NCBI GenBank assembly: GCA_027014125.1
Contig: JALWEI010000007.1
Coordinates: 1 to 50,097, forward strand
From: Acidilobaceae archaeon
GTDB taxonomy: Archaea > Thermoproteota > Thermoprotei_A > Sulfolobales > Acidilobaceae
Direction of reading: 5' to 3'
DNA: 50,097 nt
Shown here: piece after piece, positions 1 to 5,755 of the stretch
Position numbering within the stretch: position 1 is the stretch's first letter
Layout: each line of letters starts with the position of its first letter
The notes under the pieces: generated by a model
Told to the model about the DNA's origin: nothing
The model's input: the letters and a program-made list of their open reading frames with translations, nothing else
Database searches by the model: none
Program-made: the position numbers and the translations under genes

Positions 1-964
1 GGGGTGGGTACTGGTAGGGGTATGGCGGCGGGTATTGCTGGGGTCTGGCCGGTGGCGTCATTGGCTGGCCTTGTTGCTGGGGTGGCGGCTGTGGGGGGTA
101 CATCATCCAGGGCATCATCACGAACGGTGCCACGGCGCCGCTTCCCTGGGCTTTTGATAGGCTCTCTGCTATCCTCTCCCTGCCCTGCCAGTCCCTCTGG
201 TACATGGCTGCGAATGCCCTGGGCCCGCTCATCTGTAGTATTGCCTTGTCCTCGTCGCTTATATCGATCTTAATCATTATGTCGTTTAGCTTGAGGCCGT
301 ACATCTCGTTGACCTTCTGCGCCACCTTAGCCTTCACGTACTCTCCGAACTCGCCTAGCATTGCTAGGAAGTCTGAGACGTTCTGAAGGGTCCTGCCAGC
401 CCTTGCCTGCTCTGAGGCGTACTCGCCTAGGGCGTCTACTAGTGTTGATACTATGAATGGGTTGATCTTCCTCTTCACCTCATCCTTCGTGACCTCGCTC
501 TGGACGCCCATGAACCTGGTGTAGAATAGCTCGATCTTGTTCTCGTCGACTGTGAAGTAGTATGTGCCGTTGAAGAGCAGGTGGACTCCGACCCAGTCTA
601 TGAAGGCCCTGTCGCCGAAGCGGGCCTCGTATTGTAGTAGGTTTATGAAGACAACGTTTGCCTTGAATATAGACTCGCCGTAGAGGCCCTCAACTAGGCC
701 TTTGAGGAAGGGGACGTTCTGTGTGTCGAGCATATGCCTCCCTGGGCCTAGGACTCCCAGTATCTTGCCGTCCCTAAGGAAGACCGCCCTCTGGGACTCG
801 TTTACTATGAGCACTGATCCCAGGTCGATCACGTCCCTGGGGTACTTCCACGCTATGTAGGACTCTGGGTCTAGGTCCTCGGGCCACTTGATTACGACCC
901 TCTCGCCGCCGGCTATCTTGCCGGCTCCCTTGCCTAGGGCCCTGCCGATCTTGTCAAATACCAA
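1..964 (-). CDS. SPFH/virion-core-like protein (YdjI type), C-terminus cut off by window
   Basis: The reverse strand is open for 321 codons from a TTG at 964 to the window edge, so the C-terminus is missing. The start follows a GGGGTG Shine-Dalgarno and a TATA-like box lies about 50 nt upstream. The N-terminal part (VFDKIGRALGKGAGKIAGGE, then a beta-rich stretch with VLGPGRHML) matches SPFH-like proteins of the YdjI/virion core family, which often end in a zinc ribbon. The last visible 40 residues are rich in Pro, Gln and Tyr, typical of the linker before that ribbon. The function is unknown; membrane-microdomain or scaffold roles are only inferred from SPFH relatives. Confidence 0.72.
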   Translation of the reverse strand, partial: MVFDKIGRALGKGAGKIAGGERVVIKWPEDLDPESYIAWKYPRDVIDLGSVLIVNESQRAVFLRDGKILGVLGPGRHMLDTQNVPFLKGLVEGLYGESIFKANVVFINLLQYEARFGDRAFIDWVGVHLLFNGTYYFTVDENKIELFYTRFMGVQSEVTKDEVKRKINPFIVSTLVDALGEYASEQARAGRTLQNVSDFLAMLGEFGEYVKAKVAQKVNEMYGLKLNDIMIKIDISDEDKAILQMSGPRAFAAMYQRDWQGRERIAESLSKAQGSGAVAPFVMMPWMMYPPQPPPQQQGQPMTPPARPQQYPPPYPYQYPP

Positions 965-1012
965 GACATGGGCACCCCGCTGGGGTAGTACGGGGGGTAT
1001 ATGTAGCCTCGT

Positions 1013-1079: not shown

Positions 1080-1265
1080 CTAGGTGTATATCTTCATCCT
1101 CCTGGTTATGAAGGGCTTGTCCTCCTGCTTCGCCATGTACTGCTTCAGGGCCCTCCTTATGATCTCGCTCTTGGTGATATTCCGCTTCCTAGCGTACTCC
1201 TCGAGCATGGCGAGCAGGTCTTCTTCTATCTTGAATGAGACTACACGCATCCCTCCCGCCACCAT
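1080..1265 (-). CDS. Small ribbon-helix-helix (CopG-type) DNA-binding protein
   Basis: A 61-residue protein. RVVSFKIEEDLLAMLEEYA forms the beta strand and first helix, and NITKSEIIRRALKQYM the second helix, of a MetJ/Arc/CopG fold. Such proteins bind operators as dimers through the paired strands. The start at 1265 would be nearly leaderless relative to a TATA box at 1289-1298; an internal ATG at 1250 directly follows GGAGGG and is the alternative. The basic tail (ITRRMKIYT) may contact DNA. It is divergent from a second RHH gene at 1400, with dyads between them, so autoregulation is likely. It could also be an antitoxin, but no toxin gene is adjacent. Confidence 0.8.
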   Translation of the reverse strand: MVAGGMRVVSFKIEEDLLAMLEEYARKRNITKSEIIRRALKQYMAKQEDKPFITRRMKIYT

Positions 1266-1288
1266 CAGCCATCAATACTCCTCTGATG

Positions 1289-1298
1289 CTTATATTAC
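1289..1298 (-). promoter_or_regulatory. TATA box for 61-aa RHH gene
   Basis: Reverse-strand GTAATATAAG. The inferred start site near 1268 nearly coincides with the ATG at 1265, which suggests a leaderless message. A CATCAG-N14-CTGATG dyad (1263-1288) overlaps this start region. Confidence 0.4.
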
Positions 1299-1314
1299 AT
1301 GCTCGACGCGTCTA

Positions 1315-1344
1315 CCAGTCTTCCTATTGTAACGGGAAGACTGG
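1315..1344. promoter_or_regulatory. Operator-like perfect inverted repeat, 10-bp arms
   Basis: CCAGTCTTCC (1315-1324) and GGAAGACTGG (1335-1344) are exact reverse complements separated by 10 bp. The element lies between two divergent ribbon-helix-helix genes and just upstream of the TATA box at 1353-1361, where a bound dimer pair could control initiation. It is not followed by a T tract and sits upstream of both genes, so it does not look like a terminator. Confidence 0.65.
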
Positions 1345-1352
1345 AGGATTAA

Positions 1353-1361
1353 GATTTATTA
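1353..1361 (+). promoter_or_regulatory. TATA box for 119-aa RHH gene
   Basis: GATTTATTA about 26 nt before an inferred start near 1383. It is flanked upstream by the 1315-1344 dyad and downstream by the 1374-1397 dyad. Confidence 0.45.
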
Positions 1362-1373
1362 GGCTCCAGTGTA

Positions 1374-1397
1374 GTCTTTCTCTTTAGTGGGGAAGAC
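1374..1397. promoter_or_regulatory. Second operator copy, same half-sites and spacing
   Basis: GTCTTTC (1374-1380) and GGAAGAC (1391-1397) repeat the core half-sites of the upstream dyad (GTCTTCC and GGAAGAC) with the same 10-bp gap and one mismatch. The right arm overlaps the GTGGGGA ribosome site of the gene starting at 1400, so binding could block transcription near its start. Confidence 0.5.
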
Positions 1398-1399
1398 AT

Positions 1400-1759
1400 T
1401 TGCCAACAGTCCACCTGTCGCTGCCGGACGCCACGTACAGGGAGCTGAAGAGGAGAGCAGGAGAGATGGGCATACAGGTCACCGACCTCATAAAGCTCTA
1501 CATAAAGATAGGCCTAGACAGGGGCTTCTCCACTAGCAACAAGGAGGACTCCGAGGTGGTGGCCCACCTAGCCTCGAGGATGGAGAAGATGGAGCGGGAG
1601 TACAGGATGAAGATGACCATACTAGAGGGCAAGTACAGGCAGCTGGAGGAGATGCTCACCTACATACTGGAGAGGGTCGATAGCATAGAGGATCTGATAA
1701 CATCGGCTAGGAGCATGAGCAAGGTTGTTGAGAGGCCAGCGGTATACGAGGAGGGCTAG
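1400..1759 (+). CDS. Ribbon-helix-helix protein with coiled-coil tail
   Basis: A 119-residue protein. Residues 1-45 (PTVHLSLPDATYRELKRRA, then helix-turn-helix GIQVTDLIKLYIKIGLD) form an RHH DNA-binding domain. Residues 55-105 are strongly helical with heptad-like hydrophobics (MEKMEREYRMKM..., YRQLEEMLTYILERV), suggesting a coiled coil for oligomerisation. The TTG start follows GTGGGGA by six bases. Two copies of one dyad surround its promoter. Similar RHH-coiled-coil proteins are common in crenarchaea and their viruses; no function is assigned. Its stop overlaps that of the convergent DUF1152 gene by 4 nt. Confidence 0.75.
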   Translation: MPTVHLSLPDATYRELKRRAGEMGIQVTDLIKLYIKIGLDRGFSTSNKEDSEVVAHLASRMEKMEREYRMKMTILEGKYRQLEEMLTYILERVDSIEDLITSARSMSKVVERPAVYEEG

Positions 1760-2787
1760 CGGCACTCCACGGCACGGCAGCCCTCCATGAAGAGGCGCCT
1801 CCTACCCTCATGGTAGATATCGTCGACCGTCATAGGCCTGCCGGGCTGCATGGACTTGAGCCTATACAGCTCCTCCTCCAGGTCGAGCTCGGTGTAGATG
1901 CACCTCTCGTTGAGCCTCCTCCGAGCCTCCTCGATGCTCCTGGTTCCCTCAACTAGGCCGGGTAGAGGAGTCCACTGGTAGGCCTTATCGGTGTCCAGTA
2001 GGTACATTGATGCTGATACAGGGGTTATCGTGACCCTCCTAGTGCCTCCCCTGATCCGGGTTTCCCCGTACTCGCCGCTGAAGGCCCGCAGGGGGATCTT
2101 GCTGGCCTCACTCACCACTGCCTCGGACACACTGTAGGCGGCGTTGTACTCCCTCCTGTTGAGCCCGTAGACCCCTATGAGGCCCCCCATACGTGCTATA
2201 CGGGATATGTACTGGAGGACCTGGATCCACTCCAGCTCCCCATCCGCTCCTGGGGATAGGATCGCCAGGCCACTCCTGTCCCTAACCCCGGCTAGGCCTG
2301 CCAGGCTTACTGCATCCGCCAGGGGGCTCCTCAGCCCGTCCTCGCACCCCAGGGCTAGGGCATCTCCCCCGGTGTCAAGGCCTATTACATAGTCGAAGCC
2401 CAGCTCATCCACTATTATCCTCATGGCCTCGACCATACCCACGGCACCCTTGGAGAGGTCCAGGTACACCCCCTCCTCGCCTAGGGCCTGGAGTAGCCTG
2501 GCCAGCTGTGGCTTGACCCTCCTGCCCTCCCGTAGTGCTACTATGCTGCCATCCACCAGGGCGATGCTCCTCCAGGCCCTAACAGGCCCTTCAACCGCCT
2601 CGAGGGGTATAGGCCCTGGCACGGGGTCTACCGTGTACCTCTCCCACACGACGCTTCCCAGCATGGGGTGGGCTCCGATGCTCCTGAGCCTCTGGTAGAG
2701 TATGTATGCTCCTAGTACATCGCCTCCACCGCCTGCACCGAAGACTAGGACCTTGAGCCCCCTCAGCTCCTCCAGCGAGTCAACCAA
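1756..2787 (-). CDS. DUF1152 family protein
   Basis: A 343-residue protein with a nucleotide-binding-like N-terminus (KVLVFGAGGGGDVLGAYIL, residues 12-30) and the acidic LDTGGDAL motif in the middle, both typical of the archaeal DUF1152 family. No enzymatic activity is known to me; the glycine-rich loop suggests binding of a nucleotide or phosphorylated ligand. The TTG start at 2787 is placed below a TATA-like box (GATTTATATCC on the reverse strand, about 2824-2834). A decayed relative lies at 5885-6817. Confidence 0.8.
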   Translation of the reverse strand: MVDSLEELRGLKVLVFGAGGGGDVLGAYILYQRLRSIGAHPMLGSVVWERYTVDPVPGPIPLEAVEGPVRAWRSIALVDGSIVALREGRRVKPQLARLLQALGEEGVYLDLSKGAVGMVEAMRIIVDELGFDYVIGLDTGGDALALGCEDGLRSPLADAVSLAGLAGVRDRSGLAILSPGADGELEWIQVLQYISRIARMGGLIGVYGLNRREYNAAYSVSEAVVSEASKIPLRAFSGEYGETRIRGGTRRVTITPVSASMYLLDTDKAYQWTPLPGLVEGTRSIEEARRRLNERCIYTELDLEEELYRLKSMQPGRPMTVDDIYHEGRRRLFMEGCRAVECR

Positions 2788-2940: not shown

Positions 2941-3453
2941 GTGCCGATATCTCCGGTTGGTGAAGGGGTTATAGTCCCCACCCTGCTATTATCATGGTGG
3001 GAGGGGTCCAGAGTGGGCGGGGACTCCTGGCTCAGATCCTTCGCCCTGGCACTAATAGAGGCGCTGGAGGCTCTTCTAGCCACCACTATAGTAGTCCTGG
3101 TACTAATCTCTGGCGTGAAGCTCCTGGGTATGGCTTTCAGCATGATGGGGGAGGGTAGTATAGATAAGACCGAGGTTCTCCATATACTGGACCTGACACT
3201 GCTACTAGTGCTATCTATCGATATACTCAGGACCCTGATAACCGCGATACTGGGCAGGTACCTCCCCCTCAGGATCGTGGTTGAAGCAGCTATGATAGCG
3301 GTCCTCAGGGAGATTATCTCTATAGAGATTAGGCATCTGGACTATAAGATGATAATCTCCCTAACTATAGCCCTTCTGGGTCTGGCGGTGCTCTGGATAA
3401 TAGCGTCTGGTATGGAAAATAGGATTAGGAGGATAGCGGCTACTCGCCCTTAG
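2941..3453 (+). CDS. PsiE-like (phosphate-starvation-inducible) membrane protein
   Basis: A 170-residue protein with four predicted membrane helices: about 40-65, 80-105, 110-130 and 138-158. The loop LREIISIEIRHLDYKMIISL before the last helix is characteristic of the PsiE family, whose molecular role is unknown. The N-terminal 25 residues precede the first helix, and start choice is uncertain, though the GTG at 2941 fits a leaderless transcript. Its 3' end overlaps the convergent PCuAC gene by 14 nt. Confidence 0.7.
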   Translation: MPISPVGEGVIVPTLLLSWWEGSRVGGDSWLRSFALALIEALEALLATTIVVLVLISGVKLLGMAFSMMGEGSIDKTEVLHILDLTLLLVLSIDILRTLITAILGRYLPLRIVVEAAMIAVLREIISIEIRHLDYKMIISLTIALLGLAVLWIIASGMENRIRRIAATRP

Positions 3454-3883
3454 CCTTTACTGGCAGGGTAACCGTTAGGGTGTCGCCGTTGTCGAAGTAG
3501 AGTACTAGCTCCAGCGTGGAGCCGGGCTCTAGTTTCGTGTCAAGTATCATAATATGGTATCCGCCGTGCTTCAGCTCCAGGTTCTCGCCGGGCCCGGCGC
3601 ATATCTTCTCTACCGGCTGCATCCTCGCTATACCGTTCTCGTCAACTACGGTCTGATGGAGCTCCACTCTGGCGTCGGGCATGCTTGGTATCTCAGCCTT
3701 GACTAGGCATACTGTGTCCTTGTATCCGTTATGTATGGTCATGAAGGCGCCTCCGCCCATCGGTAGGGCAATGGCGTAGCCGTCTATAAACTCTAGGCCT
3801 CCTCCCCTTGAGGCCAGCATATATGATGCTAGGCCGGCGACCACGACCAGGGCCACTATGCCCGCTATAACCTTGGCATCCAC
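3440..3883 (-). CDS. PCu(A)C-type copper chaperone
   Basis: A 147-residue protein anchored by an N-terminal helix (residues 5-24) with an extracytoplasmic beta domain. The copper motif H(M)X10MX21HXM of the PCuAC family is intact as His76, Met88, His110 and Met112, within ...ELHQTVV..., ARMQPV and GGYHIMI. Family members bind Cu(I) and help load the CuA site of haem-copper oxidase subunit II. It is the last gene of an operon with a thioredoxin-CcdA fusion and SCO. Cys59 and Cys95 are additional cysteines of unknown role. Confidence 0.85.
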   Translation of the reverse strand: MDAKVIAGIVALVVVAGLASYMLASRGGGLEFIDGYAIALPMGGGAFMTIHNGYKDTVCLVKAEIPSMPDARVELHQTVVDENGIARMQPVEKICAGPGENLELKHGGYHIMILDTKLEPGSTLELVLYFDNGDTLTVTLPVKAKGE

Positions 3884-3890
3884 CCCAGGG

Positions 3891-5096
3891 TCACCCCAGC
3901 TCTACTAGGCCGAGGGGGAGAGTCTCGGCTATAAGGTATATGCCGGCGGCTAGTAGTATGAGGCCCTGTATGCGTAGCATTGTGGGGGAGGTGGAGGCCC
4001 TGGTTAGCTTCGATGCTATGCCCCTGAGGCCGTAGGCTGAGGCTATGTAGGGTAGGGAGTATCCGATGGCGAATGCCAGGCCGGTGAGGAGCACTGATAC
4101 TGGCTCAGCCGTTATGGAGGTCATTGCTAGTATCAGGAATGGCAGGCTGCACTGTAGCCCCAGTATGGGGAATAGTATGCTTGACCTGGCGCTCCCGCTC
4201 ATCATAGGCTCCTTGCCCACAATGTTCAGGGCGCCCCATGATGCTATGAATGCCCCGGCAAATACCACGGCTACGGCGAAGGGGTTCACGGTCTTCACCG
4301 CGAAGCTAGCAACGTACAGGAGGGTCATAGCGAAGCCGAGGAGCAGGGTTGCACCGGCCACGGCCATGAACATCATCGCTAGCCTATTCACTCCTCCCCC
4401 GCCTCTTCTGGCCTCGCGGGATGCGAAGGCAGCTATCATAGGTACGCTGCACGGGGCGAAGGCAGCTAGGAGCCCCAGGGTAAGGCCCTTTAGGGGGCCT
4501 CCTAGGAGTGTGGCCTCGTTGGGGTCTCCCTCGGCTTGCCCGTCCTGTTGTGGGTTCTTACTCAGGCTCTCGTCCAGGAAGCTTAGGAGGGCCTCGTACT
4601 GGTCCCCGCCTACCGGGTCGACTGGGAAGAGGCCTACCTGCCTGCCCGTCTCTATGGAGTTAACGTAGACTATTAGTGTAGGGGTGCCCTGCACCATGTA
4701 GTCCTGTAGTATCTTGAGCGCGTAGTCCATGTCCTTCTTAAATATCTCGTCTATATGCACCTTGACGAAGAGCACATCGGGATACCTGTCGGCCGCCTTG
4801 TATATGTAGGGCCTTAGGACCTTGCATCCCGCACAGTTCTTCTGCTCCCAGAAGAGCACCACCTTCTCGTTGGAAGCAATTATCTCGTCCAGCGTCGGCT
4901 CCTTATCCATCACATCAATGACATTGGGCTGGCCCGCCTCGGCCTGGAGGGTGGGTCCCCTCTGTGCTATGGCCTGGCCTAGGGCTAGGAGAAGGGTTAT
5001 TACTCCCGCCACGATGAGAAGGTGCCTAACCCCTATGATCTTGCCCTTGCCGGGGGTCTCCATCCTCAGGCCCTTACGCCTGCCCACCCCCCTCAC
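3891..5096 (-). CDS. Thioredoxin domain fused to CcdA/DsbD-like membrane domain
   Basis: A 401-residue protein with a signal-anchor helix at about 24-44, then a thioredoxin fold (residues 65-180) with Cys88-Ala-Gly-Cys91 and a cis-proline at Thr138-Pro139. Six membrane helices follow (205-400). The membrane part keeps one cysteine in each repeat, APCS (Cys216) and LQCS (Cys316), as in CcdA/DsbD electron carriers. The likely job is to pass electrons across the membrane and reduce the cysteines of SCO or CuA. The domain order is the reverse of DsbD, whose thioredoxin is C-terminal. The GTG start overlaps the SCO stop as GTGA; an internal ATG at residue 12 is possible. Confidence 0.85.
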   Translation of the reverse strand: MRGVGRRKGLRMETPGKGKIIGVRHLLIVAGVITLLLALGQAIAQRGPTLQAEAGQPNVIDVMDKEPTLDEIIASNEKVVLFWEQKNCAGCKVLRPYIYKAADRYPDVLFVKVHIDEIFKKDMDYALKILQDYMVQGTPTLIVYVNSIETGRQVGLFPVDPVGGDQYEALLSFLDESLSKNPQQDGQAEGDPNEATLLGGPLKGLTLGLLAAFAPCSVPMIAAFASREARRGGGGVNRLAMMFMAVAGATLLLGFAMTLLYVASFAVKTVNPFAVAVVFAGAFIASWGALNIVGKEPMMSGSARSSILFPILGLQCSLPFLILAMTSITAEPVSVLLTGLAFAIGYSLPYIASAYGLRGIASKLTRASTSPTMLRIQGLILLAAGIYLIAETLPLGLVELG

Positions 5097-5755
5097 CCTT
5101 CCTCAACTACCTCTAGGACCTTGTCGTACAGCACCTGGGCGGTATCGTATACCCTCTCCCAGTCAGGGTGTACTATGTAGCGGAGGATCCCGTCCTTGTC
5201 TATGATTAGGAAGCCGCCGAAGTGGTTTACCAAGCCGCTCTCCGTCTTCTCCACGTATATGCCATATGCATCGTAGATCTCCTGCATCTTCTCCACGCTG
5301 TCGAAGAGCCAGATCCAGTTCACCTTATCCAGCAGGTCCTTGGCCACCCTCTTCTGGTACTCCACAGCCATCTCCGGGGTGCCGTCCCACGGGTCGACTT
5401 CAACGGTCACCCATACAACCTCGTCGGCCCAGCCCTCCTGCACACTCCTATTCATCACGTAAACCATCATCTGGGACTCCAGGTGGCATATGTCGGGGCA
5501 CCTCACATACTGTGGCACGAGGACCGTAACCTTCCCCTCTATAGGTATCGTCACTGGGCCCACAGTAGAGTTCACGGTGAATACCGGGGCGGGCTTGTTC
5601 CAATTGGACACAGACACGGTTCCATATACCTCAGCTGGCCTATTAGACTCGATCTTAGGCCCTATCATGCCAGCCCCCAGTATATAGCCGACGCTGATAG
5701 ACACCGCGAGGCCTGCTATTGCGGCCACGAGTATAGTCTTTGTCTTTGCATCCAC
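5093..5755 (-). CDS. SCO1/SenC-family copper metallochaperone
   Basis: A 220-residue protein with an N-terminal anchor helix (8-30) and a thioredoxin-like SCO domain. The metal ligands are visible: Cys86-Pro-Asp-Ile-Cys90 and His178 in NHFGGF. SCO proteins bind copper and mature the CuA centre of cytochrome oxidase, or reduce its cysteines. It is the first gene of the operon; the next gene overlaps by 4 nt. Reverse-strand TATA-like elements lie at about 5780-5805. No terminal oxidase gene lies in the window, so the client must be encoded elsewhere. Confidence 0.88.
   Translation of the reverse strand: MDAKTKTILVAAIAGLAVSISVGYILGAGMIGPKIESNRPAEVYGTVSVSNWNKPAPVFTVNSTVGPVTIPIEGKVTVLVPQYVRCPDICHLESQMMVYVMNRSVQEGWADEVVWVTVEVDPWDGTPEMAVEYQKRVAKDLLDKVNWIWLFDSVEKMQEIYDAYGIYVEKTESGLVNHFGGFLIIDKDGILRYIVHPDWERVYDTAQVLYDKVLEVVEEG

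Follow-up and report, generated by a model that had tools for sequence, protein, structure and literature searches.

Small ribbon-helix-helix (RHH) repressors of the CopG/ORF56 type regulate themselves through a dyad operator placed over their own promoter, and in MatP, another RHH protein, a coiled coil at the C-terminus connects two DNA sites. aCcr1 is reported in the 2023 work of Yang and of Li to be an RHH protein that represses cell-cycle genes in Sulfolobales. Few other regulators of cell-cycle transcription are known in Thermoproteota. The published aCcr1 box, GTAWTAC, lies between the TATA element and the start codon. In the portions covered of four papers, aCcr1 represses cdvA and other cell-cycle genes in Saccharolobus (PMC12796447, PMC12284271, PMC7617429, PMC11796394), and RHH-controlled genes form a small portion of the cyclic genes according to the part covered of a review (PMC7617429). 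In haloarchaea the RHH protein CdrS regulates ftsZ2 (PMC7439475, in the part covered).

The window considered here is the whole stretch of 50,097 nucleotides from an Acidilobaceae archaeon (contig JALWEI010000007.1), near the beginning of which an aCcr1-family gene and the gene of a 119-aa protein (henceforth RHH119) diverge from a region with repeated dyads. aCcr1 and autoregulating RHH repressors are already known; no description of the RHH119 gene and its doubled operator was found in the covered parts of the aCcr1, RHH, cdvA and DUF1152 literature, a scope outside which the two founding aCcr1 papers lie. The features of the locus are:

1080..1250, minus strand: aCcr1-family RHH protein of 56 aa if started at the conserved Met, or 61 aa if started at the ATG at 1265; NCBIfam equivalog NF053762, aCcr1_fam
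1263..1288, no strand: third dyad of the earlier reading, CATCAG-N14-CTGATG, probably chance and outside the module; broken in the sister L004
1289..1297, minus strand: putative TATA-like box TAATATAAG of the small RHH (aCcr1-family) gene, read from the sequence
1315..1344, no strand: site A, CCAGTCTTCC-N10-GGAAGACTGG (core 1318-1341), its arms perfect over 10 bp, between the divergent TATA-like boxes; pattern, and copies at the same distance from the 119-aa start in relatives
1346..1361, plus strand: putative BRE/TATA-like element GGATTAAGATTTATTA of the 119-aa gene, between sites A and B, read from the sequence
1373..1398, plus strand: site B, AGTCTTTCTCTTTAGTGGGGAAGACA (dyad core 1374-1397); motif from 30 family promoters
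1400..1759, plus strand: RHH119, 119-aa RHH-like protein with a long C-terminal coiled coil, TTG start; family and order matches, predicted helices, Foldseek
1756..2787, minus strand: convergent DUF1152 gene; PF06626, E=1.9e-102

This locus resembles the aCcr1 system of Sulfolobales in that the small divergent gene falls in the same family by the NCBIfam equivalog model, and in that site B lies between the TATA-like box and the start codon, as aCcr1 boxes do. It differs in that the dyad is a 26-bp spaced palindrome whereas the aCcr1 box is the short GTAWTAC, in that cdvA of the source genome is devoid of that box, and in that the operator is situated at RHH119, a neighbor without a description in the covered parts of the aCcr1 literature. 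CopG and ORF56 are both among the Foldseek matches of RHH119 and share with it a dyad operator over the own promoter; in contrast to them, RHH119 has a 62-residue C-terminal helix and two dyads flanking the core promoter, and is chromosomal and conserved across an order. As in MatP, which appears at Foldseek rank 44, the combination of an RHH-like region with a coiled coil could bridge two sites, but no sequence relation is shown (Foldseek E 3.6) and the sites of RHH119 are putative promoter operators. CdrS likewise links an RHH transcription factor to cell division in archaea, but it is of another family and goes with another division machinery, and it is not known to be paired with an RHH119.

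The 119-aa protein and its divergent neighbor

RHH119 belongs to no named family. Its predicted helices comprise residues 10-23, 27-41 and 49-110, the last of which is the 62-residue C-terminal helix; residues 1-5 have a pLDDT below 50 and the strand region is of low confidence. The N-terminal motif PT[VI]H is nearly invariant among relatives. RHH structures dominate the top ranks of the Foldseek search, with PutA, CopG, Arc and FitA appearing early, none of them at E<0.001. Among 19 members of the family, the Pfam RHH models CopG_antitoxin, RHH_5 and RHH_1 matched 10, 7 and 4 proteins, respectively, and none of these models rose above its gathering cut-off (best E 0.001). The sequence-only reading had described the gene as encoding an RHH domain with a coiled coil: the predicted helices and the fold matches agree with this, but with the Pfam RHH models below cut-off the sequence supports it weakly, and we term the protein RHH-like without filing it in the RHH (MetJ/Arc/CopG) superfamily. 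Solved structures listed as matches of RHH119 are coiled coils that look like chance similarities, and a search for virus-borne copies found none in 50,697 phage records or in viral contigs.

The small divergent gene probably starts at Met6 (window position 1250), giving a 56-aa product, because the segment MRVVSFK is the start kept in relatives. It scores 62.1 bits (E 3.3e-17) against NF053762, which has a curated cut-off of 60 bits, and is the sole match of the source genome above that cut-off; by this sequence model the gene belongs to the aCcr1 family. Two tested orthologues from the corresponding locus fall under the cut-off (53.9 and 51.9 bits). In G085, presumably Sulfolobus acidocaldarius, the best aCcr1_fam match is the 58-aa gene divergent from RHH119 (79.1 bits). 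We take aCcr1 itself to be 58 aa long, a size near that of the small RHH protein. Relatives of the latter also occur in 83 archaeal virus records, many of them of Sulfolobus and Acidianus viruses, including ATV and AFV1, and three genomes of family f7 (G072, G082 and G097) have up to 12 aCcr1_fam matches each.

The position of this start bears on the third dyad, which had been thought to cover the start of the 61-aa RHH gene. The dyad is indeed present at 1263-1288, but with a probable start at 1250 it falls in the 5' region instead. Its right arm reads CTAGTG in L004, the closest sister species, whose 119-aa protein is 92% identical to that of the source genome. By a hand estimate, chance alone should produce about 0.7 dyads with 6-bp arms and any gap up to 20 in 150 bp. 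We therefore reject it as an operator and regard it as probably a chance occurrence.

RHH119 is found in 40 of the 48 family genomes, including all 25 of good quality, and in 50/78 genomes of the order (E<=0.001), of which families f3, f6 and f9 mostly are without it; CdvA is present in 66/66 good genomes of the order. A class-level sample of 197 genomes yielded RHH119 matches in 123, two of which belong to other orders and display the same divergent pair. An aCcr1-family gene lies divergently near RHH119 in 42 of 43 clear order genomes, and in the 43rd, G060, the locus is at a contig edge (this count uses 45 clear rows at E 1.1e-8 or better, with 13 weaker rows left out). The separation of the pair is 146-203 bp between matched stretches. 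The proposal that the two regulators diverge from an operator region in common is thus borne out by an arrangement conserved across the order, and the RHH119/aCcr1-family pair looks like a real and old control switch.

The duplicated operator and its conservation

In the window the core of site A is GTCTTCC-N10-GGAAGAC (1318-1341) and that of site B is GTCTTTC-N10-GGAAGAC (1374-1397); each has a gap of 10 bp, and they are 56 bp apart from start to start. These coordinates and distances agree with those given from the sequence alone, as does the bracketing of the TATA of the 119-aa gene, since the TATA-like box read at 1354-1361 falls between the dyads. The promoter roles ascribed to the TATA-like boxes follow general archaeal promoter rules. 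Site B ends 1 base 5' of the RHH119 start codon and would cover the expected transcription start of the gene. Throughout the source genome (1,823,860 bases) the pattern GTCTTYC-N10-GGAAGAC occurs at dyads A and B only, with none for the reversed-pattern control, and a more complete version of the operator pattern, allowed up to 3 mismatches, recovers just these two as well. The suggested search for the half-site pair elsewhere in the genome thus gave no further copy, and a genome-wide regulon of such dyads is unsupported there. Dyads A and B themselves are real and beyond chance.

A Gibbs search of the 55 bases 5' of RHH119 in 30 family genomes recovered a 26-bp motif, AGTAYTWCTCTT-N4-GGGGRAGACA, which usually ends 0-4 bases before the start codon, and scanning with it showed that many of them have another copy 5' of the TATA-like box; several of these upstream copies are weak. 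The 56-bp offset between the copies ranks first among 111 offsets in 13/30 genomes (0.3 expected), with a mean z of 2.13 against an SD of 0.41 over offsets; as the genomes are related, these counts are not independent trials. In the other 17 the best offset differs, being 53 (three genomes), 84 (three), 54 (two), 70 (two) or a value seen once. With one mismatch allowed, the operator pattern has 45 matches in the 48 family genomes, 37 at this locus, 2 near DUF1152 and 6 elsewhere, as assigned by manual reading, compared to 14 for the reversed control in places of any kind. The two dyads are one duplicated operator type, approximately TGTMTTCC-N10-GGAAKACA, site B having the form of the Gibbs motif. 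Hence the notion that each regulator has its own operator holds for the 119-aa gene, but A and B are of a single type and the third dyad probably arose by chance.

Other families, among them Sulfolobaceae, again show the motif trained on this family together with comparable spacings; the fit is poor in families f4 and f7, and the best offset at 18 loci outside the family is 56 in three, 58 in three and 44 in four. Across the 78 order genomes, the pattern as originally read matches in three genomes, twice at the RHH119 locus and once in G061, and a symmetric pattern matches at 8 places, of which 3 are at the RHH119 locus (G000, G048 and G101). In G101 and G048, sister species from another family, the site A core starts 82 bp before RHH119 just as in the source genome, and their 26-bp sites, TGTATTCC-N10-GGAATACA and TGTCTTCC-N10-GGAAGACA, differ solely by matching changes in the two arms. 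Over 33 sites, arms agree with their own partners at 5.61 of 8 positions versus 4.78 with swapped arms, the former value being reached in 0/5000 shuffles, and C at position 3 goes with G at 22 (9/9) while T at 22 goes with A at 3 (10/10); these sites were hand-picked among the clearer ones and their relatedness inflates the count. Lack of conservation of the dyads in sister genomes had been named as the finding that would speak against them, and they are conserved there. Between the two closest species, there are 4 changes in the 57 positions of sites A and B and 11 in the remaining 92, so that conservation of the sites is not clearly higher than that of the rest. A common helical phase of A and B was also considered and rejected: the spacings of 42, 53, 56, 58, 70 and 84 share no single phase, which leaves a rigid loop unsupported.

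In 7/30 family loci (L006, L008, L010, L012, L017, L020 and L021, from genera g2, g3 and g4), the convergent DUF1152 gene has a strong palindrome of the operator type close to its 5' end, scoring 11.0-31.1 where the highest of 145,302 background windows reached 10.5; L007 and L032 also score above background but further off, and are excluded from the seven. No such palindrome was found near the DUF1152 5' end in the source genome. Where they occur, the palindromes suggest that the regulon of these genera includes DUF1152. The picture of a self-contained switch is accordingly doubtful, both on account of these operators and because aCcr1 of Saccharolobus acts on other genes according to the literature.

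Candidate binders and a proposed mechanism

The aCcr1 box bears on which protein binds the dyads. GTAATAC or GTATTAC directly precedes the cdvA start codon in 8/8 Sulfolobaceae, in keeping with the published aCcr1 box, whereas the RHH119-aCcr1 intergenic regions of the same eight genomes contain the exact GTAWTAC in 0/8 and instead have dyad-like A and B, weak in some. This argues that the dyad is most likely not an aCcr1 site, and RHH119, as the product of the flanked gene, is therefore the best candidate binder. Most likely, then, RHH119 rather than aCcr1 binds the dyads and represses itself, perhaps acting on aCcr1 too. Taken as a whole, a duplicated operator bound by RHH119, with autorepression and a possible effect on the aCcr1-family gene, is an account that we consider slightly better than even.

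The operator element is present in two conserved copies that flank the RHH119 core promoter, and the divergent neighbor is an aCcr1-family gene. Each dyad would be bound by the N-terminal ribbon-helix-helix of RHH119, and the C-terminal coiled coil might join dimers and so hold sites A and B together. Occupation of site B would block the transcription start of RHH119 and that of site A the access of TFB/TBP, the two together resulting in autorepression. Since site A separates the two TATA-like boxes and is about 20 bp away from the one belonging to the aCcr1-family gene, its occupation may also determine how much aCcr1-family protein is made; in many relatives this protein might itself use a separate box (GTAWTAC). 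In this way the locus would link a repressor of the cell cycle with a second, autoregulated RHH protein that is so far unstudied. That it represents an ancient two-protein RHH switch above archaeal cell-division control, with RHH119 controlling both itself and the aCcr1 gene, is a more tentative proposal that we would not yet bet on; if true, RHH119 would be a missing upstream layer of the archaeal cell cycle. The presence of RHH119 and a conserved operator beside an aCcr1-family gene offers a direct handle on the control of aCcr1 itself, and Sulfolobus acidocaldarius or Saccharolobus islandicus could serve to test the operator.

Alternatively, the aCcr1-family protein might bind the dyads, their half-sites being degenerate aCcr1 boxes and RHH119 a conserved target like cdvA. 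The position of site B between TATA and start codon, like that of the Sulfolobaceae cdvA boxes, is consistent with this, as is its left half, which reads GTATTAC or GTACTAC in many genomes and so resembles the box. Moreover, the exact GTAWTAC occurs in 22 of 47 readable intergenic regions (51 examined, 4 unreadable; about one expected by a hand estimate), mostly on the aCcr1 side or mid-region and twice inside site B, and aCcr1 binds further promoters in Saccharolobus in the part covered of PMC12796447. However, besides the Sulfolobaceae contrast given above, the right arms GGAAGAC are unlike the box, and aCcr1 has several genes under its control, yet the source genome contains the long dyad only twice. 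We therefore regard aCcr1 binding as rather unlikely. The same boxes on the aCcr1 side, occurring besides the dyads in many genomes, and the fact that the pair was not seen apart except at contig edges, would fit a two-input switch, in which RHH119 occupies the dyads and the aCcr1-family protein those halves that resemble GTAWTAC, the two proteins either competing or binding jointly; but as the exact box is absent from the window as well as from the eight Sulfolobaceae regions, it is not general in that form, and we consider such sharing improbable. The same absence tells on the supposed own operator of the aCcr1-family gene, whose likely box, GTAWTAC, differs in sequence from the dyads. Five upstream regions of RHH119 in family f7 share a GTATTAC box 89-91 bp before the gene, a different arrangement of the same module.

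An explanation at the level of RNA, with site B as a ribosome-binding or leader signal and site A as chance or an unrelated repeat, draws on the location of site B 0-4 bases before most start codons and on GGAGG-like bases in some genomes. It appears very improbable, because site A is upstream of the TATA-like box and would not be transcribed from the RHH119 promoter, because site A matches in either orientation with covarying arms, and because relatives have operator copies near the DUF1152 5' end. Returning to RHH119 as the binder, the consequences for cell division in the source genome should be drawn with care: cdvA was considered there as a GTAWTAC target and discarded, as no such box was found in its upstream region. 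Repression of cdvA by the aCcr1-family protein is accordingly not part of our reading of this organism, the membership of the protein in the family being by sequence.

Neighboring genes

Downstream of the aCcr1-family gene and in the same direction lies a gene of the SPFH/Band 7 family (1-1000, minus strand; PF13421, E 9.4e-21). On the other side, a PsiE-family membrane protein gene is found at 2941-3453 (PF06146, E 7.1e-10). At 3440-5755 there are three minus-strand ORFs resembling a copper/cytochrome assembly cluster, for which the names PCuAC-like, thioredoxin-membrane fusion and SCO1-like come from reading the translations.
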